Positions 2,836 through 28,934 of a stretch of DNA of 32,067 nucleotides are shown here, in pieces. The stretch comes from an uncultured Bacteroidia bacterium. Its GTDB lineage: Bacteria > Bacteroidota > Bacteroidia > Bacteroidales > UBA932. The notes below the pieces were generated by a model. That model saw nothing but the letters and a program-made list of their open reading frames with translations. It searched no databases and had not been told where the DNA came from. The position numbers and the translations under genes are program-made. Each line of letters opens with the position of its first letter. Position 1 is the stretch's first letter. Location of the stretch: contig CACZXH010000036.1 in NCBI GenBank assembly GCA_902785065.1, positions 1-32,067 on the forward strand. Direction: 5' to 3'.

Positions 2836-3750
2836 TTATTTCCCTTCAGTTTCTTCCGGTACCGCCAGCACGCAGCGGGCGAGTTTGGCGTAGTGCTCCT
2901 CCGAGAGGATGCCGGCTTTGTGCATCCCCTCGAGTGTCCACGCAACTTGGGGCTGGTGCGTCCGGTAAAGGACGATGGAATGGGCTTCGTCCTTGGAAAT
3001 GTACGGATGACGGGCCAAATCACGCTCGGAAAGCGTCCAGATGGGGTAAGGCGCCGGCGGCGAGCAGGAGATGAGGTCTTTCAGGGCGTCGTATTTCTCC
3101 CGGTCGAAATGGTAGATTTCCAGCAACTGCTCCGGATGCGAGTAGCCCCCCAGTGAGGTCCGGTAGGACACCATTTTCGACGCGAAATAGGGGCCGATGC
3201 CGGGCAGCGTCTCGAACGCAGCGCTGTCGGCCTTGTTCAGGTCGATGCGGGGAATGTCGATATAGGGCTCCAGGCGGTCGAAGACGGAATCGGCCACCAC
3301 ATAGGATTTGGCGAAGTCCGCAGGCCGACGGAAACGGCCACCTTTGGCGCGGTAATTCAGGATGGACTGGGCCTGCTTCTCGGAAAAGCCCAGGCGCATC
3401 AGGTCCTCCAGCGAGACGGTGTTCGGATTGAAACGGAAGGATTCGACCCGGCGCGGGGCGGCTTTCTCCCGGATGCGGACGGCGTCCGGGCTGCGGTCCG
3501 CGGGTTTCCGGTAGTAAACCGTATCCTTTTCTTCGTCCACAGGCTCCGGTCCCGCCTGGAGCTCCGTTTTCGGCCGGATCCGTTCTACCACGTAAACGGT
3601 GTCCGGGTGGTCGCGGTCTGCGACCAGACGCGTCACGGCCGCCTTGTGGATGAACAGGGCGGTTTCGAATCCGATAATCAGGAATACGAGGGCGATGGCG
3701 CCCGTGGTGAAGCTACTCTTCAGGGTCTTCTGTCTCTTCCCCTCTTCCAT
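2836..3750 (-). CDS. Membrane-anchored helix-hairpin-helix (ComEA-like) protein
   Basis: A 304-residue protein with one N-terminal membrane helix (about residues 16-34), a charged linker (45-105) and tandem helix-hairpin-helix motifs. The first is around residues 114-165, the second around 168-228 (core LPGIGPYFASKM), and a weaker third lies around 240-295. HhH motifs bind DNA backbone; ComEA proteins use them to hold DNA during uptake, but Bacteroidota have many uncharacterised proteins of this layout and a role in transformation is only inferred. The start overlaps the end of rsmI by 38 bases, and no later ATG preserves the membrane helix, so this start is accepted. It is the last gene of the operon that begins at 5013. 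Confidence 0.82.
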   Translation of the reverse strand: MEEGKRQKTLKSSFTTGAIALVFLIIGFETALFIHKAAVTRLVADRDHPDTVYVVERIRPKTELQAGPEPVDEEKDTVYYRKPADRSPDAVRIREKAAPRRVESFRFNPNTVSLEDLMRLGFSEKQAQSILNYRAKGGRFRRPADFAKSYVVADSVFDRLEPYIDIPRIDLNKADSAAFETLPGIGPYFASKMVSYRTSLGGYSHPEQLLEIYHFDREKYDALKDLISCSPPAPYPIWTLSERDLARHPYISKDEAHSIVLYRTHQPQVAWTLEGMHKAGILSEEHYAKLARCVLAVPEETEGK

Positions 3751-19640: not shown

Positions 19641-20389
19641 CCTCGCTGCGCTGCTTCGTCGTGGACGACGAGCCCCTCGCCGTCAAGATGCTGGAGAATT
19701 TCATCGCCCGGACACCGTTCCTGGAGCTCGTGGCGTCGTTCACCGACCCGGTCCTGGCCCTGTCCGAGATGCGGACGCAGGCGCCGGACCTGGTGTTCCT
19801 GGACATCCAGATGCCTGACCTGAGCGGGATGGAACTGTCCCGGATGGTCCCCGCCGGCACCCGCATCATCTTCACCACGGCCTTCAAGCAGTACGCGTTC
19901 GAGAGTTACGAGGTTTCCGCCCTGGATTTCCTCCTGAAGCCCATCCGTTACCAGAAGTTCCTGGAAGCGGCGGAGAAGGCGCGGGAATGGTTCACGCTGA
20001 AGGAAGCGGCGACGGCTGCCGCAGCCCCGGCGGCTCCGGCTCCGGCTTCCGAGGCGAAAACGTCCACCTTCTTCAAGGTCGACGGTGCCCTCCGGAAGGT
20101 GGAGTTCGACGACATCCTGTTCGTCGAGGGAATGAAGGATTACGTGATGGTGTTCCTCGCTTCGCAGAAGCAGCCGCTCGTTACGCACGTGACGATGAAG
20201 GGGATGGAGGAGATGCTTCCCGCCGGACAGTTCATGCGGATCCACCGCTCGTTCATCGTCGCCCTGGACAAGGTCGCCTCGGTGAGCGGCACCGGCGACG
20301 TGAAGGTAGGGGACCGTTTGCTGCACGTCTCCGACGCTTACCGCGAGGCCTTTGACGCGTACCTTCGGGAGCATTCGATTGCAAGATAA
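19637..20389 (+). CDS. LytTR-family DNA-binding response regulator
   Basis: A 250-residue response regulator: a receiver domain (about 1-120, with the acidic pair VDDE near the N-terminus, phospho-acceptor Asp in VFLDIQMPD, switch Thr in FTTAF and Lys in LLKPI), an Ala/Pro-rich linker (about 128-140) and a C-terminal LytTR domain (about 145-250; core blocks ILFVEGMKDYVMV and MRIHRSFIVALDKV). It is translationally coupled to the kinase by an ATGA overlap, so the two form a cognate pair. A likely target is the 21 bp-spaced TTCGTC repeat ahead of the barrel gene. GH43 starts 10 bases after its stop, so read-through into the glycosidase genes is possible. Confidence 0.93.
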   Translation: MTSLRCFVVDDEPLAVKMLENFIARTPFLELVASFTDPVLALSEMRTQAPDLVFLDIQMPDLSGMELSRMVPAGTRIIFTTAFKQYAFESYEVSALDFLLKPIRYQKFLEAAEKAREWFTLKEAATAAAAPAAPAPASEAKTSTFFKVDGALRKVEFDDILFVEGMKDYVMVFLASQKQPLVTHVTMKGMEEMLPAGQFMRIHRSFIVALDKVASVSGTGDVKVGDRLLHVSDAYREAFDAYLREHSIAR

Positions 20390-20399
20390 TACACTGTAT

Positions 20400-22451
20400 A
20401 TGAAGCCTGTTCGCGTTTTGTCGGCCTTTTGCCTGGCCCTCGTTTCCTGTGGCGGTCCCGTCTCCGAGACCGCCGATTTCATAGGTAATCCATACCTGCC
20501 GTTGTGGGAGCACGTGCCCGACGGGGAACCGCGGGTGTTCGAGGATCCGGACAACCCCGGTCATTACCGCATTTATGTGACGGGATCGCACGATACGCGC
20601 GTCGAGAGTTACTGCGGTCAGGACGACCGGCAATGGTCGGCGCCGGTGGAGGACCTGACCGCCTGGCGGGATGAAGGCCCCGTGTTCACGTACACCGAGA
20701 ACGGAAATATGAGTACGGTCTTTGCGCCGGACCTCGTGGAGGTGACGCGTAGGGACGACGGCTCGCACAAGTATTACCTGTATCCGCACGCCTTGATGCA
20801 TACGCCGATGGTGTGCGTCAGCGACCGTCCGGACGGCCCGTTCACGGTGCTGAACGTGCAGGACGGCCGGCTCGCGCCCGGCAGCATCATGGGCTTCGAC
20901 CCGGGCGTGCTGGTCGAGCAGATTGACGATCCCGCCGATCCCGACTATGCCATCGGCTTCCGGGCCTACGGCGCCTGGGGCATCCAGCGGGCCAGCGCGA
21001 CGGAACTGGACCAGAATACGATGTATACGCCCCGCTACGGGAGTCCGGATTATCCATTCTGGGTTCCGTCCATGATCACGTCCTATCTCGCGAATCTGCC
21101 GAAGGGCCAGGCCGTGGCTGAAGAGATGAAGCAGCACGTCCAGTGGGCCGGCATCCTGGAGGGCGAGTTTATCGACTTTCCGGCCGTAGCGGAAGGGGAG
21201 GACCTGGACGATTTCCAGTTCTATGAGGCCTCCTCGTTCCGGAAGATCGGGAACAAGTATGTTTACCTGTACAGCGGCTTTTCCGGGCAGGAATACGGCC
21301 TGACGCAGAGCAATGCGACGCTGCGGTATGCCTATGCCGACACGCCGCGCGGGCCTTGGAAAAGCGGCGGCGTCCTCGTGGACGCCCGCGGCCCCGTCCT
21401 GTCCCGCGACGGCTCCGCGCTGGAGACCCATTTCGGCGACAACAACACCCACGGCTCGCTGGCGGAGATCAACGGCCAGTGGTATGTGTTCTACCACCGC
21501 GCTCCGCGCGGCTTCGGTTTCGCCCGCCAGTCGATGGTCGCCCCGGTGGCCGTCCAGGCCGATGAGAAGCCGGTTTCCGAAGGCGGCGTGGTGCGGATTA
21601 CCGCCTACGACCCGTACAAGGGCGCCTTCACGGTGAAGGCCGCTGACGGTTCTGAGTACCGCGGCGCGGAGGTGACTTCTGAAGGCTTCTTCATCTACGG
21701 TCTGCCTCCGTACCGCTACTATTCCGCAGGCTATGCCTGCTATCTCTCCAACCCGAACTCGATCCAGGACAACTGGGATGTCTGGGACAACCGCATGGAC
21801 ATCACCGAGGTCCGGGCCGGAGATATCCTGGGGTATAAGTACATCGGCTTCGGCGGCCTGCCCGAGGGCGCGCCCGGCCTGCCGGCCTTCGAGGGCGTGC
21901 GTCCCGGAAATGGAACGGTGTTCAATCTGTTCGTCGCCGCCCGCACGGCGCAGGCCTTCAAGGTGGGCGTCTGGATCGACGGCCCCTGGGAAGGCGGCGC
22001 CTGGAACGGCACGAAGGTCGGGGAGGTGGAGATTCCCGCCGGCGCTTCGACCGATGTCACGAAATATACGGTTTCGGTGGGTGATGCCGTCGATGGCCTG
22101 ACGGGCAAGCACGCCCTGTTCCTCGTAGCGGAGGGTCCGGCCGGCGAGCCTCTTTGCGACATCATGGGCTTCGGTTTCACCAAGAAAGGGCAGAAGATGG
22201 CGTTCCCCGTCCCGCCGGCCGTGAAGATTTCCGTCGGCGGCCAGGCACTGGAAATGCCCGCGCACCCCGTCTGGACGACGGATCAGAACGGATTGACGGA
22301 CAATACGTTCTACGAGGTGTCGGTGCCCTCGGGCGTGGCTGGCCAGATCGCCGTCAAGGCACCGAAGTCCGTGGCGGTCGCCATCGACCAGGACGCCCGC
22401 GTCGTGCGGTGCACGTATCGGGGCAAGACGAAGACTTTTACCCTGAAATAG
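20400..22451 (+). CDS. GH43-type glycoside hydrolase lipoprotein with C-terminal accessory domain
   Basis: A 683-residue lipoprotein (lipobox ALVSC, Cys17). Residues about 40-375 form a five-bladed GH43-like propeller: first-blade motif GEPRVFEDP at 42-50 where the catalytic Asp is expected, FDPGV near residue 166 for the modulating Asp, YEASSFRK with the probable acid Glu276, and NNTHGS with the conserved His351. Residues about 400-545 look like a carbohydrate-binding beta-sandwich of the CBM6 kind, followed by a further beta domain. GH43 enzymes mainly cleave arabinosyl, xylosyl or galactosyl links; the substrate here is undetermined. It starts 10 bases after the response regulator. Its TAG stop is formed at the junction with the repeat that begins at 22450. 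Confidence 0.82.
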   Translation: MKPVRVLSAFCLALVSCGGPVSETADFIGNPYLPLWEHVPDGEPRVFEDPDNPGHYRIYVTGSHDTRVESYCGQDDRQWSAPVEDLTAWRDEGPVFTYTENGNMSTVFAPDLVEVTRRDDGSHKYYLYPHALMHTPMVCVSDRPDGPFTVLNVQDGRLAPGSIMGFDPGVLVEQIDDPADPDYAIGFRAYGAWGIQRASATELDQNTMYTPRYGSPDYPFWVPSMITSYLANLPKGQAVAEEMKQHVQWAGILEGEFIDFPAVAEGEDLDDFQFYEASSFRKIGNKYVYLYSGFSGQEYGLTQSNATLRYAYADTPRGPWKSGGVLVDARGPVLSRDGSALETHFGDNNTHGSLAEINGQWYVFYHRAPRGFGFARQSMVAPVAVQADEKPVSEGGVVRITAYDPYKGAFTVKAADGSEYRGAEVTSEGFFIYGLPPYRYYSAGYACYLSNPNSIQDNWDVWDNRMDITEVRAGDILGYKYIGFGGLPEGAPGLPAFEGVRPGNGTVFNLFVAARTAQAFKVGVWIDGPWEGGAWNGTKVGEVEIPAGASTDVTKYTVSVGDAVDGLTGKHALFLVAEGPAGEPLCDIMGFGFTKKGQKMAFPVPPAVKISVGGQALEMPAHPVWTTDQNGLTDNTFYEVSVPSGVAGQIAVKAPKSVAVAIDQDARVVRCTYRGKTKTFTLK

Positions 22452-22542
22452 TGCTCGTACAGGTCCGCTGTCTGGACCTATACAAGCGTTTTAGGGGTGT
22501 TTTTGACCGTACTGGTCCATGGAATGGACCTATACAAGCATT
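22450..22542 (+). repeat. REP-like two-hairpin repeat, copy A (3'-shortened)
   Basis: Begins AGTGCTCGTAC and contains hairpin 1 (GCTCGTACAGGTCC with GGACCTATACAAGC), the spacer GTTTTAGGGGTGTTTTTG and hairpin 2 ending GGACCTATACAAGC. It lacks the CTGGAGGGG tail of the other copies. The AG of the repeat supplies the last two bases of the GH43 stop codon, and the element fills nearly all of the 95-base gap to the GH30 start. Confidence 0.85.
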
Positions 22543-22546
22543 GATT

Positions 22547-23938
22547 ATGAGAAATTGGGTTTTATTCCTCGCCCTGCTCGCGGCATTCTCTTGCCAGCGT
22601 GCCGGGAAGGTCGAATGGGTATCGACCACGTTTGAGAATCCTTGGCAGGTCATGGAAGCGGTTGAGGTCGATGCGCCGGCGGAGGCGTCCGTCGTCGTGG
22701 ACCTCCAGGCCGTGAATCAGGCGGTCGAGGGGTTCGGCACCTGCTTCAACGAGCTGGGATGGACCTCGCTGTCGGAGCTTTCCGAGACGGACCGCGCGGC
22801 GATCCTGCAGGACCTGTTCACGCCCGCGGGGATGAACTTGACGATGGCCCGGATGCCGGTCGGCGCCAATGACTTCAGCGTCGACTTCTACTCCTATGAC
22901 GAGGTCCCCGGCGACCTGGCGCTGGAGCACTTTTCCATCGACCGGGACCGCCAGAGGCTGATTCCGTTCATCCGGGCGGCGAAGGCCGTGAATCCCGCGC
23001 TGCGAATCTGGGCCTCGCCCTGGTGCCTGCCGGAATGGATGAAAGTGAACCGCCATTATGCCTCCCGGACGGCCCCTTTCAACGGACTTCCGAAAGATCG
23101 GGAGACCCCGGAGGGAACGGATGCCTTCATTCTGGAACCGGCTTATCTGCAGGCCTATGCACAGTATTTCGGCAAGTTCATCGATGCGTACAAGGCCGAG
23201 GGTATCGACATTTTCATGGTGATGCCGCAGAACGAGCCCAACTCGGACCAGGTCTTCCCCTCCTGCACCTGGACCCCGGACGGCTTGATTTCGTTCCTGA
23301 AGTACCTGGAGCCGGAAATGGCTGCTCGCGATGTCGATGTGTACCTGGGCACCATGGAACGGGCCGATCCCGACCTCTGGGACCGCATCCTGACAGATCC
23401 GGAGGTGGGACCGTCCATCAAGGGCATGGGCTTCCAGTGGGCCGGAAAGGACGCGTTGCCGGAACTGCATCGGCGGCATCCTTCGCTGCCGTGCTACCAG
23501 ACCGAGCAGGAGTGCGGCGACGGCCGCAACGATTGGCGCGGCGCCATGCACAGCTGGGACCTGATGAAGCACTACTTCGGCAACGGCGTCCAGAGCTATT
23601 TCTATTGGAATACTTCTCTGCTGGACGGCGGCATCAGCACTTGGATGTGGCGCCAGAACTCTCTGGTGGTCGTGGACAAGGAGAAAGGAACTTATCGCTA
23701 CTCGCCTGAGTATTATGTCCTTAAGCACGCCAGTCACTACGTCCAGCCCGGCGCCCGCGTCCTCACGCTGGGCGGCACCTACTCCGACGCCCTGGGCTTC
23801 CTGAATCCCGACGACCGCATTGTCCTCCTTCTCGCGAATCAAAGTGACGCCCCTCAGACCGTGTCTGTGGAAGGCCTCCCGGGCCGTCCCCGCGCCGTCA
23901 CTTTACCGGCTGGGTCGATCAATACGCTGGTGCTTTAA
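22547..23938 (+). CDS. GH30-family glycoside hydrolase lipoprotein
   Basis: A 463-residue lipoprotein (lipobox AAFSC, Cys16) with the (beta/alpha)8 GH30 fold and a C-terminal beta-sandwich (about 395-463). Diagnostic segments are GFGTCFNELGW near the start of the barrel, LRIWASPWCLPEWMK, the acid/base Glu230 in MPQNEPNSD, and the nucleophile Glu320 in YQTEQEC. GH30 includes glucosylceramidases, beta-1,6-glucanases, beta-1,6-galactanases and xylanases; I cannot assign the subfamily. With GH43 just upstream, the two surface or periplasmic enzymes probably act on one glycan, but there is no SusC/SusD pair in the window. Start ATG 22547 lies directly after repeat copy A. Confidence 0.9.
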   Translation: MRNWVLFLALLAAFSCQRAGKVEWVSTTFENPWQVMEAVEVDAPAEASVVVDLQAVNQAVEGFGTCFNELGWTSLSELSETDRAAILQDLFTPAGMNLTMARMPVGANDFSVDFYSYDEVPGDLALEHFSIDRDRQRLIPFIRAAKAVNPALRIWASPWCLPEWMKVNRHYASRTAPFNGLPKDRETPEGTDAFILEPAYLQAYAQYFGKFIDAYKAEGIDIFMVMPQNEPNSDQVFPSCTWTPDGLISFLKYLEPEMAARDVDVYLGTMERADPDLWDRILTDPEVGPSIKGMGFQWAGKDALPELHRRHPSLPCYQTEQECGDGRNDWRGAMHSWDLMKHYFGNGVQSYFYWNTSLLDGGISTWMWRQNSLVVVDKEKGTYRYSPEYYVLKHASHYVQPGARVLTLGGTYSDALGFLNPDDRIVLLLANQSDAPQTVSVEGLPGRPRAVTLPAGSINTLVL

Positions 23939-23964
23939 TCTCGTCGGCCTCCCCGTCGCCGCTA

Positions 23965-24068
23965 AGTGCTCGTACCGGTCCCGCCGATGGACCGGTACGA
24001 GCATTTTAGGGGTGTTTTTGCTTGTATGGGTCCCGCGAATGGACCGGTACGGGCACGCTGGGGGGGCG
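23965..24068 (+). repeat. REP-like two-hairpin repeat, copy B
   Basis: Hairpin 1 is a perfect 15 bp stem, TGCTCGTACCGGTCC (23967-23981) with GGACCGGTACGAGCA (23989-24003), followed by TTTTAGGGGTGTTTTTG. Hairpin 2 pairs GCTTGTATGGGTCC with GGACCGGTACGGGC using several G-U pairs. It ends GCACGCTGGGGGG. It lies 27 bases after the GH30 stop and just before the RAYT promoter. Confidence 0.9.
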
Positions 24069-24100
24069 TTGATCTTTCTTTAACAATCTGTGGCAAGGTG

Positions 24101-24131
24101 TTGCTGGATTTCAGGCAATTCCGTACTTTTG
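24101..24131 (+). promoter_or_regulatory. Promoter of the RAYT transposase gene
   Basis: TTG at 24101-24103, a 20-base spacer and TACTTTTG at 24124-24131 match the Bacteroidota promoter, 21 bases before ATG 24153. The transposase gene therefore appears to be independently transcribed, not read through from GH30. Confidence 0.65.
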
Positions 24132-24152
24132 TGGAGATAGATTTTGAGGCGT

Positions 24153-25022
24153 ATGAGAAAATATTATCTGGTCACGACGGAACATCTGAAAGAGGGGCTT
24201 TGGTTTCGGGACGAGAACGATTTCCGGGCCGGGATGAATTTCGTAGCCATCCAGGCGTATCAATCCAAAGTGACGGTTCTTGCATTCATTCTGATGTCCA
24301 ATCATCTTCATTTTGTCGTCCAGGGAAGATGGGTGGATGTCAAGGCTTTCATCGACGGTATCAAAAGCCGTTATTCCAAGTATTTGAACCACAAATACGG
24401 CACTGCCGAATTCCTTCGTCGGAACAAGGTCACCATCGAAGAAGTGTCCACGCTGAACGAGGGATTGGAGAAGGCGATTGCCTACACGCAGATGAACAGC
24501 GTGGCGGCGAACATCTGCTCCCATCCATCGCAGTATCCGTGGGGGACGGGTCCGGTGTTCTTCAATGCGACGAAGCGGTCCGGGAAGCCCCTGGGGAGCC
24601 TGTCGAGGCGGGCCCGGATCCGGCTGCTACATTGCTGCAAAGCGGATTTTCCTGCCGATTGGCTGGTATCCGAGGATGGGTATATCCTTCCTGAATCGTA
24701 TGTGGCTGTGGGGTTTGTGGAGCGTTGCTATCAGCGGGCCAGCCGGATGAACTATTTCCTGGTGAACTCCTCCAAGGCCAAACGGAAGATCCAGAATGCT
24801 GATGACCACCATCCGGCCTTCAGGGACCAGGTCATCCTGGCCGCCCTGCCGGACCTCTACCGGAGCCTGTTCGGAAAGCAGAGCTTCGAGGAACTGACAC
24901 TTGAGGAGAAGACAGAATCCCTCCGCCAGATCCAACGCCGTTTCTGCTCCAATGTCCATCAAATCGCCCGCGTGACCGGCCTCACCTATGAAGCGGCCGC
25001 CCGGATGATGGACAGCGTCTGA
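24153..25022 (+). CDS. REP-associated tyrosine transposase (RAYT, Y1_Tnp family)
   Basis: A 289-residue Y1/HUH single-strand DNA transposase relative. The signature HUH motif is HLH in ILMSNHLHFVVQG (about residues 47-59), and the region YTQMNSVAANICSHPSQYPWG corresponds to the conserved segment of RAYTs that carries the catalytic Tyr helix and the YPW motif. A C-terminal extension of about 90 residues ends in a helix-turn-helix-like stretch (VHQIARVTGLTYEAAARMM). RAYTs are usually single-copy, non-mobile as full elements, and cut or join the REP hairpins that flank them. Here repeat copies B and C lie on both sides in the same orientation. The first part of the gene is visibly less GC-rich than its neighbours. 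ATG 24153 was chosen over TTG 24144 because of the promoter position. Confidence 0.87.
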   Translation: MRKYYLVTTEHLKEGLWFRDENDFRAGMNFVAIQAYQSKVTVLAFILMSNHLHFVVQGRWVDVKAFIDGIKSRYSKYLNHKYGTAEFLRRNKVTIEEVSTLNEGLEKAIAYTQMNSVAANICSHPSQYPWGTGPVFFNATKRSGKPLGSLSRRARIRLLHCCKADFPADWLVSEDGYILPESYVAVGFVERCYQRASRMNYFLVNSSKAKRKIQNADDHHPAFRDQVILAALPDLYRSLFGKQSFEELTLEEKTESLRQIQRRFCSNVHQIARVTGLTYEAAARMMDSV

Positions 25023-25045
25023 AATCCCGCATTCGCGAAGGTCTC

Positions 25046-25146
25046 AGTGCTCGTACCGGTCCCGCCGATGGACCTGTACGAGCATTTTTGGGGTGTTTTT
25101 GCTTGTATAGGTCCCGTTAATGGACCTGTACGAGCACCTGGAGGGG
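25046..25146 (+). repeat. REP-like two-hairpin repeat, copy C
   Basis: Starts AGTGCTCGTACCGG. Hairpin 1 is TGCTCGTACCGGTCC with GGACCTGTACGAGCA (one mismatch), then TTTTTGGGGTGTTTTTG, then hairpin 2 GCTTGTATAGGTCC with GGACCTGTACGAGC, ending CACCTGGAGGGG. It lies between two convergent stop codons, 23 bases after the RAYT stop and 7 bases from the stop of the gene ending at 25154. Confidence 0.9.
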
Positions 25147-25153
25147 TATCTGG

Positions 25154-26035
25154 CTACGGAAGAGCGTCGATGGCCTCGTCCAGCGACCCATAGACGGGGA
25201 CGCCGTAGCGGGAGCAGGTGAGGCGGACGTTGTCGTAGCGGTAGAAGCCGGGGGTGCAGACGACGAGGAGTTTGCCGCTGCGGGCGTGGAGGCCGAGTTC
25301 CAGGAGGGTGATGGGGGACTGGCTGCCCGGGAGGAAGACCATCAGGATGTGGTCGGCCTTTTCCAGGTGCTCGAGTTCCCAATGGACCTGATAGTCCATC
25401 TCGCCTTCGCGCTCGGGGTGCCATTCTTCCTGGCGGGGGTTGTAGAGCAGGTACCGTCGGTCCCGCCCGGCGAGCTTCGCGGCGACCGTCTGCTGCCAGT
25501 CCTCGCTGTGGCCATTGTCGATGGTGCCGGCCAGGAAAACGGTGGTCCAGCCGCGGAGGTCCGTGGGTTCGTACTCGTGCGGATGGATCACATTGTCAAT
25601 GCGGACTTCCTCGCCCGTGGACAGCACATAGAAGGCAAGCTGCTCATTCTCAAGGGCGAAGGTAACGGCCTCGCCGGCGGCGCTCTCCGGAAGGATCCGG
25701 ACACTGTCGAAATAATACAGGCTGTCCTCGCTGTTCCACCAGCCGCCCACGTAGCCGTCGTGCGCCAGCGCATGGGAAACCACATCCCCGAGGTCCTCCT
25801 TCGAATGCCGGTCCTGCGTGGCCGCATACGCAACGGAAATCCCTTCCGTGGGCACCTTCCGATCGCGAATGTCCACAGTAAACCCATCCGGATGGGCCTG
25901 GCTGTAGTTCCATACCCAGTCGGCGGTCGCCTCCTGCGCGGGAGCCGCGGCCTCCTGCCGCGCCATCCGCGCCATCGGCCCGCACGCCACCAGCACCGTC
26001 AGGCACAAGGTGAAACGGATGGATCTAAGTCGCAT
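25154..26035 (-). CDS. Lipoprotein with nucleoside 2-deoxyribosyltransferase-like domain
   Basis: A 293-residue lipoprotein (lipobox VLVAC, Cys18). The C-terminal part (about 163-293) resembles nucleoside 2-deoxyribosyltransferase-like proteins: an opening strand VFLAGTIDNG, a DYQVHWELEHLEKADHILMVF segment whose acidic residues are in the usual place, and SPITLLELGLHARSGKLLVV with the Glu expected as nucleophile. The middle part (about 45-150, with AHDGYVGGWWNSEDSLYYFDS and STGEEVRI) resembles small domains found in phage and large polyvalent proteins; that comparison is from memory. NDT enzymes are normally cytoplasmic, so the lipid anchor is odd. It is the last gene of a five-gene cassette and directly abuts the upstream stop codon with no gap. 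Confidence 0.72.
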   Translation of the reverse strand: MRLRSIRFTLCLTVLVACGPMARMARQEAAAPAQEATADWVWNYSQAHPDGFTVDIRDRKVPTEGISVAYAATQDRHSKEDLGDVVSHALAHDGYVGGWWNSEDSLYYFDSVRILPESAAGEAVTFALENEQLAFYVLSTGEEVRIDNVIHPHEYEPTDLRGWTTVFLAGTIDNGHSEDWQQTVAAKLAGRDRRYLLYNPRQEEWHPEREGEMDYQVHWELEHLEKADHILMVFLPGSQSPITLLELGLHARSGKLLVVCTPGFYRYDNVRLTCSRYGVPVYGSLDEAIDALP

Positions 26036-26266
26036 CTACTCTTGGGATTGGTTGTTCTTTTTCTCCGGAACCTGCATCCCGAAGTAGAAAAAGACGCCCA
26101 GGACGAGGCAGATTAGGACCATGAGACCGGCATTGATCAGCGTGTCGCCCCAGTCGAAGTCCCCTTTGATAAGATGGAGGATGGGGAACACGACGATGGC
26201 GGCAATTGCATAGAAGACCAACCCCTTGGCTCCCTTCTTGAAGTCATCTGTCATTTTCAGCTTCAT
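26036..26266 (-). CDS. Small two-helix membrane protein, 76 residues
   Basis: Not recognised. It has a short basic N-terminus and two hydrophobic helices (about 14-33 and 41-64), ending in a charged cytoplasmic-type tail (PEKKNNQSQE). Its stop is immediately followed by the ATG of the deoxyribosyltransferase-like lipoprotein. An internal Met at residue 5 is an alternative start. It belongs to the five-gene minus-strand cassette. Confidence 0.62.
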   Translation of the reverse strand: MKLKMTDDFKKGAKGLVFYAIAAIVVFPILHLIKGDFDWGDTLINAGLMVLICLVLGVFFYFGMQVPEKKNNQSQE

Positions 26267-26290
26267 GATGGTTGCGATTATACGGTAAAC

Positions 26291-26482
26291 TCATTCTTTG
26301 ATTCTCGGTTTCTTCTTTTTCTCTTTCAGATATTCGACAATCCCGGAGAACAAACCGAATACGATTGCACCTGCAAAATAAAACAGGAATGGTCTCAAGC
26401 CCCTGAAGATGGCATCCAGGACCACAAAGATCACCGCAAAAGATAATGCGGCGACAATAGCAGTAATGATGTATCTTTTCAT
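26291..26482 (-). CDS. Small two-helix membrane protein, 63 residues
   Basis: Not recognised. Two hydrophobic helices (about 4-26 and 31-50) are followed by a very basic tail (LKEKKKKPRIKE). The frame is open to 26563, but a start there would overlap the upstream gene by 56 bases; ATG 26482 begins with MKRYIITAIVAAL and leaves a 25-base gap. The DNA here is clearly AT-richer than the rest of the window. Confidence 0.55.
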   Translation of the reverse strand: MKRYIITAIVAALSFAVIFVVLDAIFRGLRPFLFYFAGAIVFGLFSGIVEYLKEKKKKPRIKE

Positions 26483-26507
26483 ATGGATGCAGAATAGCTG
26501 TTGATGC

Positions 26508-26720
26508 TTATTGTTTATTCTCCCGATTCTTCCTACGGATTTCAGAAACCTGTACTGCTGCACTCATCACGTTGGCGATTGCACCCAACCAAAGTCCGAT
26601 CCTTCCCAGCATATTGATTCTGTCGCCATTCGCCGGGGTCATAATCAGACCGATGCAGAAGATCGCGGTCAGGACACAGAACAGGACCAGCAGGATCCAA
26701 TTGAACTTTGTGCTACTCAT
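26508..26720 (-). CDS. Small two-helix membrane protein, 70 residues
   Basis: Not recognised. Helices span about residues 7-28 and 37-55, with a basic tail (IRRKNRENKQ). The first starts after MSSTKFN, so the N-terminus is probably cytoplasmic. It lies 15 bases after the MORN/TonB_C gene and is probably co-transcribed with it and the three following genes. Confidence 0.58.
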   Translation of the reverse strand: MSSTKFNWILLVLFCVLTAIFCIGLIMTPANGDRINMLGRIGLWLGAIANVMSAAVQVSEIRRKNRENKQ

Positions 26721-26735
26721 TCTTCGCCCTCCTTA

Positions 26736-27527
26736 TTAATCAACCTGGCCGAAATGCGCCGTTTGGTTCTTGATGGTGTAGGGGACCGGTTTTCCGTCTT
26801 TCATGGCCGGTTTCCATTTGGGCGAATGCTTGATGACCCGGGCCAATTCATTGGCGAAAGCGTTATCCGTGGAAGAGGTAATGGTGACGTCGCTGATCTT
26901 GCCGTCTTCACCCACCGTGAACGCATAATGGACCACGGCGGACCGGCCGGACATCGATGGCGAAACCCTGAAATGGGGAACGATGTATGCCTCGAAGAAA
27001 GACACGCCATCCTTGAAAACGGGCGCCGTATCGACGTCGTTCGCTTTGATGTTCTTCAGGAAAGCGCGGTCGCCTTCGCTCAACTGGACATCGGGGAATA
27101 CGGGTTTTGTGACGCCGGCCGCTTGTGCATTCTTGTAGGTCTTGCCCTGTGAGGTGGCGCCTCTGTTCTGGACAATGCCGATGAAAACCCGCCCATCGGG
27201 ATAGAAGAGCGTGTCCCGCCCATTGGGGTATCCATGGCTGAACTCACCACAGAAGACAGCCCCCGTACGCATAAAGTATCGACCGTAACCCTGCTCCACA
27301 CCTTGCACGAAATTTCCGACATACTTGCTGCCGTCGGGCTCAAAATGCATTCCCCGGCCGGAAATGACCGCCCGATTGAACCGCCCGATATAGATTCCTT
27401 GCTCATCATGATAGAGTTTACCTTCACCCATAGGCATCTCGCCCACATACATACCATGTTCCAGGCGAAGCGTATCAACTTGAGGGGAAAGAGATAAACC
27501 AAGCAATATGGCAACAATGATTGACAT
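26736..27527 (-). CDS. MORN-repeat protein with C-terminal TonB domain
   Basis: A 263-residue protein with a hydrophobic N-terminal signal (about 1-14), four to five MORN-type repeats (about 24-120; units such as YVGEMPMGEGKLY and YVGNFVQGVEQGYGRY), a linker and a TonB C-terminal-like domain (about 180-263; VVHYAFTVGEDGKISDVTI, ending with the PKWKPAMKDGKPV segment). MORN repeats bind lipids or proteins; stand-alone TonB_C domains in Bacteroidota secreted proteins are common and need not work with ExbB/D. It is the first gene of the minus-strand cassette that runs to 25154, with a -7 box at 27554. The joint function is unknown. Confidence 0.8.
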   Translation of the reverse strand: MSIIVAILLGLSLSPQVDTLRLEHGMYVGEMPMGEGKLYHDEQGIYIGRFNRAVISGRGMHFEPDGSKYVGNFVQGVEQGYGRYFMRTGAVFCGEFSHGYPNGRDTLFYPDGRVFIGIVQNRGATSQGKTYKNAQAAGVTKPVFPDVQLSEGDRAFLKNIKANDVDTAPVFKDGVSFFEAYIVPHFRVSPSMSGRSAVVHYAFTVGEDGKISDVTITSSTDNAFANELARVIKHSPKWKPAMKDGKPVPYTIKNQTAHFGQVD

Positions 27528-27553
27528 CTTAATCTATGAATGAAGGTGCATCA

Positions 27554-27561
27554 CAAAGATA
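27554..27561 (-). promoter_or_regulatory. -7 promoter element for the five-gene cassette
   Basis: The minus strand reads TATCTTTG, 26 bases before the ATG at 27527. No -33 TTTG at normal spacing. It lies in AT-rich DNA between the cassette and repeat copy D. Confidence 0.5.
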
Positions 27562-27611
27562 TACAAAAAGTTGGAATTGTGTGGATATCAGAGGACTTTC
27601 GATAAATGTCA

Positions 27612-27712
27612 AGTGCCCGTACAGGTCCAGGTGCGGGACCGGTACGGGCACTTTGGGGGTGTTTTTGCTTGTATGGGTCCCGTCGATGGACCTGTACGGG
27701 CACCTGGAGGGG
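27612..27712 (+). repeat. REP-like two-hairpin repeat, copy D
   Basis: Starts AGTGCCCGTACAGG. Hairpin 1 pairs GTGCCCGTACAGGTCC with GGACCGGTACGGGCAC (one mismatch; the loop differs from copies B and C), then TTTGGGGGTGTTTTTG. Hairpin 2 pairs GCTTGTATGGGTCC with GGACCTGTACGGGC, ending CACCTGGAGGGG. It abuts the hutI stop codon at 27714. A-to-G changes in both arms (CTCG/CGAG to CCCG/CGGG) preserve pairing in hairpin 1. Confidence 0.9.
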
Positions 27713-27713
27713 T

Positions 27714-28934
27714 TTATTCCAGCGGCTGGCCGTTCAGGAAGACTGTCCGGAGGAAGGGGGTCTGGTAGAGGTAGGGGAGTTTGGTGAGGGTCCAGCCGGG
27801 GCGGGTGAGGAGGAGGTCGGCGCGTTTGCCGGGGGTGATGGAGCCGGTGATGTCGCTCAGGCCCATGGCGTAGGCGCTGTTCAAGGTGCAGGCGTTCAGG
27901 GCCTGGACGGGGGTGAGGCGCATGCGGATGCAGCCGAGGGCCATCACGAAGCGCATGTCGCCGGAGGGGGAGGAGCCGGGGTTGTAGTCCGATGCGAGGG
28001 CGACTCCGAGGCCTGCGCCGATGAACTCTTTCGCGCGGCCGAAGGGGATGCCGAGGAAGAAGGACGAGCCGGGCAGCATCGTCGGCATCGTCTCGGAGCC
28101 CCGCAGGACATCGATTTCCACGTCCGTCGTTCGCTCCAGATGGTCCACGGACAGGGCGCCGTGCCTCACGCCTACCTGCACGCCGCCGCTGACGGCGAGC
28201 TCGTTGGCGTGGATTTTCGGGCGCAGGCCGCAAGCCGCGCCGGCCGCGAGCAGGCGGTCCGTGTCCTCGACGGTGAAGAACCCTTCGTCGCAGAAAACGT
28301 CCACGAAATCAGCGTATTCCGCCGCCTGGGGCATCATATCGACCATCGCCTGCACGTACTCTTCGTGCGTGTAGCCGCGGCCGACGGCATGGGCCCCGAG
28401 GAAGGTGACGCGAACGAGCGCTGGGACGGACTCCTTGATGCGGCGGATGACGCGCAGCATCTTGAGCTCGTCCGCGGGGTTGAGCCCATAGCCGCTCTTG
28501 ATCTCCATCGCGCCGGTGCCCTTGCCCATCATCTCGCGGACGCGGGCTATCGACTGCTCGTAGAGTTCGTCTTCGGACGTCTCGTGCAGCAGGTCGGAGG
28601 AGTTGAGGATGCCGCCGCCGCGGGCCGCGATCTCCTCGTAACTAAGCCCGTTGATCTTGTCCAGGAACTCGCCGTCGCGGCTCCCCGCGTACACGATGTG
28701 CGTATGGCTGTCGCAGAAGGCCGGCATGACCATGCCGCCCTGGGCGTCGATAGATTCCCGGTCGGAGCCGGGAATGACGTCTTCCATCTTGCCGAAGGCC
28801 TTGATCTTGCCGTCCTCGATGGCCAGCCAGGCGTTGCGGAGCACGCCGGTCTCCGCCATCTCGGCGCCCTGCTTCCGCAGGACGCCCGCCCGCAAGATTC
28901 CGACGAGTTCGCCGATGTTTTTGATGAGGGTCAT
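27714..28934 (-). CDS. hutI: Imidazolonepropionase HutI
   Basis: Hydrolyses 4-imidazolone-5-propanoate to N-formimino-L-glutamate, the third step of histidine breakdown. The 406-residue amidohydrolase has the metal-binding HTH at residues 77-79 in CDSHTHIVYAG, FLGAHAV in the middle, the KIHANELA metal-ligand strand, and LASDYNPGS with the metal-binding Asp. It overlaps hutH by ATGA (28931-28934) and is the last hut gene in the window; its stop abuts repeat copy D. No formiminoglutamate-processing gene follows here. Identification is firm. Confidence 0.96.
   Translation of the reverse strand: MTLIKNIGELVGILRAGVLRKQGAEMAETGVLRNAWLAIEDGKIKAFGKMEDVIPGSDRESIDAQGGMVMPAFCDSHTHIVYAGSRDGEFLDKINGLSYEEIAARGGGILNSSDLLHETSEDELYEQSIARVREMMGKGTGAMEIKSGYGLNPADELKMLRVIRRIKESVPALVRVTFLGAHAVGRGYTHEEYVQAMVDMMPQAAEYADFVDVFCDEGFFTVEDTDRLLAAGAACGLRPKIHANELAVSGGVQVGVRHGALSVDHLERTTDVEIDVLRGSETMPTMLPGSSFFLGIPFGRAKEFIGAGLGVALASDYNPGSSPSGDMRFVMALGCIRMRLTPVQALNACTLNSAYAMGLSDITGSITPGKRADLLLTRPGWTLTKLPYLYQTPFLRTVFLNGQPLE

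Follow-up and report, generated by a model that had tools for sequence, protein, structure and literature searches.

The RAYT-Like Gene and Its Flanking Elements

The window, i.e., the whole stretch of 32,067 nucleotides analyzed here, is an entire contig (C36; CACZXH010000036.1) of the 2.74-Mb genome, assembled in 50 contigs, of an uncultured Bacteroidia bacterium (GCA_902785065.1; Bacteroidales, UBA932). It contains a gene whose product resembles the tyrosine transposases associated with repetitive extragenic palindromes (REPs), known as RAYTs, and four copies of a twin-hairpin element of about 91 nt. A preliminary description of this DNA had reported four two-hairpin elements in plus orientation around the RAYT gene, proposing that they form a REPtron. 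The direct-repeat search of the window recovered them as one family, the first that it listed, with four 104-nt copies at 22447, 23962, 25043, and 27609.

Element A (22451..22541, plus strand) was found by the repeat search and scores 80.6 bits with a covariance model trained on 35 distinct doublets. It sits between a gene for a 699-aa protein without Pfam match and a gene encoding a GH30 glycoside hydrolase (window 20352-23938), starting at the last base of the TAG stop codon of the former (20352-22451) and ending 5 nt upstream of the ATG (22547) of the latter. The other three elements, on the same strand, were found by the same search and score higher with the model. Element B (23966..24056; 100.4 bits) lies 27 nt past the GH30 stop codon (23938), upstream of the RAYT-like gene, and element C (25047..25137; 102.6 bits) lies 24 nt past the RAYT stop codon, in the gap between convergent genes. 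Thus, B and C, which are 92% identical, bracket the RAYT-like gene as direct repeats. Element D (27613..27703; 97.5 bits) is found 10 nt from the stop codon (27714) of a minus-strand amidohydrolase gene, and hence a stop codon is located within 0-27 nt of each of the four elements.

All four share a common plan that consists of a first hairpin, a linker formed by an A/T tract, a G/C core, and another A/T tract, and a second hairpin, the whole bounded by GTGCYC and GRGCAC. The stems have up to 15 bp and the loops 7 nt; a T run follows hairpin 1. The centers of the two hairpins are 52 nt apart, slightly less than the 54 bases first estimated. The sequence beyond the element differs among copies, as judged by eye, and the trailing sequence formerly counted as part of it falls outside, since the CTGGAGGGG tail is present only in C and D among the four window copies. 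Among 36 aligned rows (35 distinct elements, one of them read on both strands), an A immediately precedes the element in 26 and a GGGG run follows it in 9. The Rfam search of positions 22000-28000 yielded no match.

The RAYT-like gene (24153-25022, plus strand) encodes a protein of 289 aa from the ATG at 24153, with a TTG at 24144 as a possible alternative start. On the same strand it carries the HUH motif at codons 51-53 (24303-24311), the putative catalytic residue Tyr111 (24483-24485), and a YPW motif (24534-24542). The HUH and YPW features had been noticed before, and in fact all 33 aligned relatives conserve the HUH motif (N50-H51-L52-H53) and Y111 without change. The Pfam family Y1_Tnp matches the protein at 25.7 bits (cut-off 23), and the NCBIfam equivalog NF047646 (REP_Tyr_transpos) does so at 41.2 bits, without reaching its 80-bit cut-off; this model is matched by 32 of the 33 relatives at E <= 0.01. 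The comparison with E. coli RayT was made with hhalign (a MAFFT alignment misplaced the motifs) and places H51xH53 on H59-M-H61 and Y111 on Y115, although the alignment is weak (E 0.018, probability 2.6%). According to PMC6006769, the residues of RayT that contact the GTAG guide include W94, Q95, E100, H101, and R104. The WQ motif is absent from residues 54-110, between HUH and Tyr, of the window protein. The weak alignment puts L88-R89 opposite W94-Q95, and E97, V98, and L101 opposite E100, H101, and R104, respectively; because it is so weak, the absence of WQ is the only firm point concerning the guide residues.

The protein also has a C-terminal extension of approximately 150 aa beyond the core, which showed no Pfam match at E 0.001. 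An AlphaFold2 model built from six sequences was poor, with a mean predicted local distance difference test (pLDDT) score of 45.6, and is unfit to describe the C-terminal part. When this low-confidence model was used with Foldseek, the TnpA transposase of IS608 ranked first (2vhg, E 1.5e-4), ISDra2 TnpA was also listed, and the E. coli RAYT-REP complex 4er8 appeared at rank 35 (E 3.9e-3). The ratio of nonsynonymous to synonymous substitutions (dN/dS) is 0.13-0.20 against five orthologs, and thus the RAYT protein is under purifying selection. No relatives were found in the viral contigs and plasmids searched.

The Stems Covary as Two Separate Hairpins

When folded as single-stranded DNA and compared with shuffled sequences, elements A to D gave z values of -2.05, -5.10, -5.50, and -8.21, A being the weakest. 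Copy D carries CCCG/CGGG where the others have CTCG/CGAG, a compensating change of the arms that had been pointed out previously and is real.

The 91-nt element is at the same time an overall palindrome, and the minimum-energy fold of B, C, and D is one long hairpin. This is what would be expected from a canonical REPIN (a REP doublet forming a hairpin) or bacterial interspersed mosaic element (BIME), in which two inverted REPs fold back into one long single-stranded hairpin recognized through a GTAG-type guide. Doublets of similar size exist in Pseudomonas, such as the 89-bp R0 repeats (PMC2817692). To weigh both folds, the 35 doublets were compared with 500 shuffles. In the two-hairpin model, 93.0% of the cells are paired, a value matched by 2/500 shuffles; double-sided changes affect 10 pairs (0/500), and the covariation score is 0.160 (0/500). 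In the long fold-back, 91.2% of the cells are paired (142/500), double-sided changes likewise affect 10 pairs (7/500), and the score is 0.126 (350/500). The long fold thus beats most shuffles on two of the five measures, the second one being further pair types (5/500), and it keeps some support because the arms are alike. Taken together, the measures disfavor a single hairpin of the REPIN type, and we conclude that the covariation of the stems is best described by a pair of separate hairpins. As to the guide, 13 of 35 doublets contain a GT[AG]G motif at some position, in most cases a GTGG located at the loop, but within 10 nt 5' of the element it is found in only 1 of 36 rows, and the protein lacks the WQ motif. 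The canonical REPIN/BIME explanation is consequently disfavored, and we consider it very improbable.

Concerning the strand of folding, G.T and A.C mispairs amount to 91 vs. 34 cells (74 vs. 25 without four hand-chosen pairs); counted by columns, the figures are 11 vs. 9, and in the own genome of the window 14 vs. 10.

The Repeat Family Accompanies the RAYT Ortholog

A search with a degenerate pattern (<=3 mismatches) revealed three further doublets in the genome, on contigs C11, C23, and C40. The covariance model, a search that the preliminary description had suggested for this genome and its relatives, gave 14 matches, i.e., seven places on both strands, so that the genome contains seven twin elements in total and the repeat is not confined to the RAYT locus. 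Because several copies lie at contig ends, here and in the related genomes, these counts are lower bounds.

Seven further loci contain an ortholog of the RAYT gene with 85-99% identity, two of them partial, in assemblies titled Bacteroidales or Bacteroidia. One of these titles mentions goat reticulum, and assembly names with RUG refer to the rumen. The locus has been inherited vertically, with a gene order conserved over the extent of the contigs in the seven other genomes, and the element is present in all eight genomes found with the ortholog. Allowing three mismatches, forward hairpins number 14 in G000, 21 in G003, and 6 in G011; allowing two, there are 14, 3, 4, 4, and 9 in G101 to G105, respectively. 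Two or more hairpins that deviate by no more than one mismatch are present in 3/3 same-genus genomes with the ortholog vs. 1/58 without it (Fisher p 1e-4, a guide value since the species are related). Hence, repeat and ortholog go together, and the repeat is not abundant in the genus where the ortholog is missing.

The same genome encodes a second RAYT on contig C15, which with 61% identity is the best paralog in this genome and has its own flanking doublets at 51 nt. Its stem pattern is found in seven hairpins of the own genome (four at the gene, a doublet on C10, and one on C2), and elsewhere gave one weak match, in G019, among 100 other genomes. No protein more than 61% identical to the C15 RAYT was found in 61 genomes, including 36 other same-genus genomes. 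Thus, a private repeat family per RAYT held for both RAYTs tested in this genome.

These data bear on the trivial explanation that the RAYT merely adjoins an unrelated repeat family, by chance or by local duplication. The 92% identity of B and C and the existence of one genome, G017, with copies but no close RAYT would agree with it. It is contradicted by the three dispersed copies, the presence of the element in 8/8 ortholog-bearing genomes, the second private family, and the recurrence of the geometry at other RAYT loci described below, and we give it almost no credit.

In G017, the copies of the window family, at C45 and C122 (L145 and L146), are orphans.

A Recurring Spacing at Sister RAYT Loci of the Genus

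RAYT relatives were detected in 52 of 61 same-genus genomes and in none of 40 others, with up to 13 matches of all kinds per genome (13 in G044, where every match is distant; the 12 of G011 include fragments). A profile of the 33 relatives (E 1e-10) matched 17 of 295 genomes of the order; 15 of these lie outside the genus and were matched over the HUH part only.

We scanned up to 800 nt on each side of 57 RAYT loci, six of which constitute the ortholog group. Adjacent similar hairpins form 70 pairs in these flanks; in 44 pairs, which come from 24 loci including the six of the ortholog group, the centers are 51-53 nt apart. When the best pair per locus was chosen regardless of distance and the ortholog group was counted once, 15 of 30 loci had it at 51-53 nt, a proportion that becomes 15/23 among loci whose best pair shares a perfect 8-mer. 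The 56 control loci, a nonrandom set retrieved by searching for patterns or flanks, yielded 19 pairs; eight of these are at 50.5-52 nt, all in loci retrieved through the element itself or its flanks.

Among representatives chosen to have a pair at 45-60 nt (20 loci), the distance between centers is 51.75 nt with a standard deviation (sd) of 0.77, narrowed by this preselection. In the same loci, the linker measures 16.3 nt (sd 5.0) and the hairpin span 35.8 nt (sd 4.8), values that hinge on the judged end of the stem. At the midpoint of the spacer the G/C fraction is 0.70-0.90 (positions -3 to +1), and it falls to 0.05-0.25 at -7 to -4 and to 0.00-0.15 at +4 to +6, corresponding to A/T tracts.

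Sister RAYTs (<=61% identity) have largely different stems and often share the geometry. The stems of the 20 representatives show a mean best match of 9.2/14 vs. 8.6 for shuffled hairpins. Matches of at least 11 were found in 17/190 stem pairs vs. 7/400 shuffled ones, suggesting some residual kinship. The closest protein pair (L050 and L055; 73% identity) shares 13 of 14 stem positions. The tip motif [CG]GTCC-N-GGAC[CG] was considered as a general rule and rejected, being present in 7 of 20 representatives.

The covariance model matches 31 of 51 non-orthologous RAYT loci. Among non-RAYT loci it matches 3 of 45, each of which had been retrieved with the element pattern; another point to note is that L194, one of these 45, touches the end of a RAYT gene. 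The model matched none of 16 other RAYT-like loci, 15 of them in 15 genomes outside the genus (L235-L249) and one in the same genus (L234), and the pooled comparison is then 31/51 vs. 3/61. By genome and with strict filters, 26/61 are positive in the genus and 0/40 outside it. Positive genomes comprise 21/27 of those whose best RAYT reaches 241 bits (a cut chosen after seeing the gap down to 166) and 5/34 of the others, with 0/9 for those without RAYT match; when the training genomes are removed, the proportions are 16/22 vs. 4/33.

Some loci present further particularities. The RAYT flanks of L055, L061, and L219 contain tandem arrays of palindromes that exceed doublets, with a pitch of mostly 51-53 nt (48-58 in L055). 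Two RAYT paralogs lie within 7 kb in G054:C14:159734-166508. The RAYT relative of L044 (G016:C5) has an in-frame TAG near its end and is perhaps decaying. Outside the genus but within the order, the RAYT-like locus L242 shows at 981-1155 a palindrome array with a 47-nt pitch.

Age and Movement of the Copies

In 8 pairs compared across species, copies that occupy orthologous sites share 88-98% identity, whereas those within the genome are 66-92% identical. The element of site A is present in the window and in G003 and absent from L096 and L100; L099 is uninformative. In L102, near 3237-3367, most of the element has given way to another inverted repeat, of the ATTCCTTCGC...GGAATGA type, and the right end of the element remains. 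The left flank of window element D matches one copy of G003 and the right flank another one, both copies being separate in G003, which fits recombination between copies. In some other genomes, the positions that correspond to the C64 and C70 copies of G003 carry no element, and the joints are imprecise. Given these joints and the remnants of half elements, insertion and loss look the same. From these sequence comparisons, gain or loss of elements and recombination appear to take place.

An alternative explanation is that the RAYT has been domesticated and no longer mobilizes DNA. The palindromes would then serve as binding sites or, in the RNA, as 3'-end hairpins (terminators or stabilizers of the message), and the protein would be retained for a host role, e.g., the control of nearby genes or DNA processing at these sites. 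The short distance of the four window elements to a stop codon, the T run after hairpin 1, the low dN/dS, the gene order kept in the seven other genomes, and the mostly higher similarity of orthologous compared with paralogous copies agree with this explanation. However, a terminator scan did not name any element hairpin (8 in total vs. a shuffled mean of 7.6; one weak match begins at the last bases of element B), the T run of D is on the wrong strand for the amidohydrolase gene, and a second private dispersed family in the same genome is a typical residue of mobile repeats. Such a regulatory role seems to us unlikely.

A Probable REPtron-Like System With a Cognate Twin Element

The explanation that we prefer, with a probability of about two in three, is a REPtron-like system composed of a RAYT-kind HUH/Tyr (Y1) enzyme and a cognate twin element of about 91 nt. 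The REPtron that had been proposed stands as far as the RAYT-like gene and its cognate dispersed repeat are concerned, and does not stand in its canonical form, given the lack of a GT[AG]G foot and of WQ, the direct flanking repeats, the seven copies, and the 41 of 80 bits with NF047646. In this system, the enzyme, probably as two subunits, would recognize both hairpins simultaneously by their private stem sequence, and its tyrosine would cut and rejoin the single-stranded DNA of the element. The twin units might be slowly copied or moved between sites just past stop codons. Before cleavage, both palindromes may be contacted from the same face of the DNA, be it duplex or extruded, perhaps via the C-terminal part of the protein; such a one-face contact is favored because the distance between centers, about five turns of B-DNA, stays constant and the length of the linker does not. 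Phasing on a duplex or on extruded DNA accounts for this combination better than a tether of single-stranded DNA would, but descent from a single 52-nt ancestor with selection against indels would give the same picture. The RAYT paralogs would have drifted to their own stem sequences under a fixed geometry.

Several observations weigh against this proposal. Half of the 30 loci have their best pair at another distance, 20 of the 51 non-orthologous RAYT loci lack a twin element according to the covariance model, the small spread of the center distance owes part of its size to preselection, the linker and stem lengths depend on where the stem is judged to end, and the genomes of one genus are a non-independent sample. 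G017, whose best RAYT is 51% identical, is the sole exception among the 58 genomes without ortholog. Since the identity of orthologous copies mostly exceeds that within the genome, no recent movement is visible and the copies look old, and neither a base-precise empty site nor a target rule was found at site A or at the C64 and C70 copies. In addition, acylphosphatases, which have a similar ferredoxin-like fold, are among the top ten Foldseek matches, and with so poor a model the role of the C-terminal part and the dimer are guesses.

A broader and more tentative idea, to which we would give rather less than even odds, is that a long HUH/Tyr lineage uses a DNA ruler, i.e., palindromes of free sequence placed five helical turns apart with a fixed spacer, and that one genus has multiplied such genes, in many cases to several per genome, each with its own address, producing natural orthogonal single-strand nickases together with their cognate sites. 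The part concerning an own address per gene rests on two genes of one genome.

Comparison With Known Systems

In the literature covered, the biochemistry of REPs and RAYTs concerns proteobacterial enzymes with GTAG-tagged hairpins. About 20 enzyme-repeat pairs are available in this genus, with one recurring geometry and stems that largely differ, and they make it testable how RAYTs recognize and change their repeats. They also make testable the coexistence of a large C-terminal part with repeat-linked enzymes, as opposed to the split reported in PMC6006769, and they are a possible source of orthogonal sequence-specific single-strand nickases. Among the matches listed from the open PMC literature (including PMC6006769, PMC3733652, PMC3116915, PMC2817692, PMC8266576, and PMC8049555), none described fixed-pitch twin hairpins in Bacteroidota.

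The RAYT/TnpA-REP REPtrons of subclasses 2.2, 2.4, 2.5, 2.7, and 2.8 (PMC6006769) are alike in having a HUH/Tyr gene flanked by palindromes, dispersed copies, and private families. The window system differs from them in the absence of a GT[AG]G foot and of WQ, the additional C-terminal part, the direct doublets, the seven copies, and the pitch of about 52 nt. Flanking REPs are described in PMC2817692 as inverted and usually present in more than 100 copies, unlike the direct flanking elements and the seven copies found here. Subclass 2.6 RAYTs (Bertels group 5; PMC6006769) are closer in that they belong to Bacteroidota and have atypical structures without GT[AG]G and copies elsewhere in the genome. 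The table of that paper gives them approximately 179 aa, NH[LIV]H, WQ, and YIH[QN]NP, whereas the window protein has 289 aa, NHLH, no WQ, and YTQMNS. Part of the pattern may already be recorded among the "atypical" repeats of subclass 2.6 in the supplement of PMC6006769.

The TnpA proteins of the IS200/IS605 family (IS608 and ISDra2), which recognize hairpins, appear to share the N-terminal fold, as far as the structural model indicates, and the HUH/Tyr residues; in contrast to such insertion sequences, no identical extra copies of the gene were seen in the genome, where the best paralog is 61% identical. TIRYTs and their TIRtrons (PMC3733652) also combine RAYT-like genes with repeats other than GTAG-REPs, some of these repeats being dimeric, but they are terminal and inverted, whereas the window gene is flanked by the direct twin hairpins B and C. 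Finally, the REPINs of Pseudomonas fluorescens (PMC3116915) are likewise RAYT-linked palindrome doublets that act as a unit; they are made of inverted REPs predicted to form a single hairpin and were modeled as 71- and 110-bp units in one genome, whereas in the system described here the covariation is that of two independent hairpins, and the pitch is seen again in other families.

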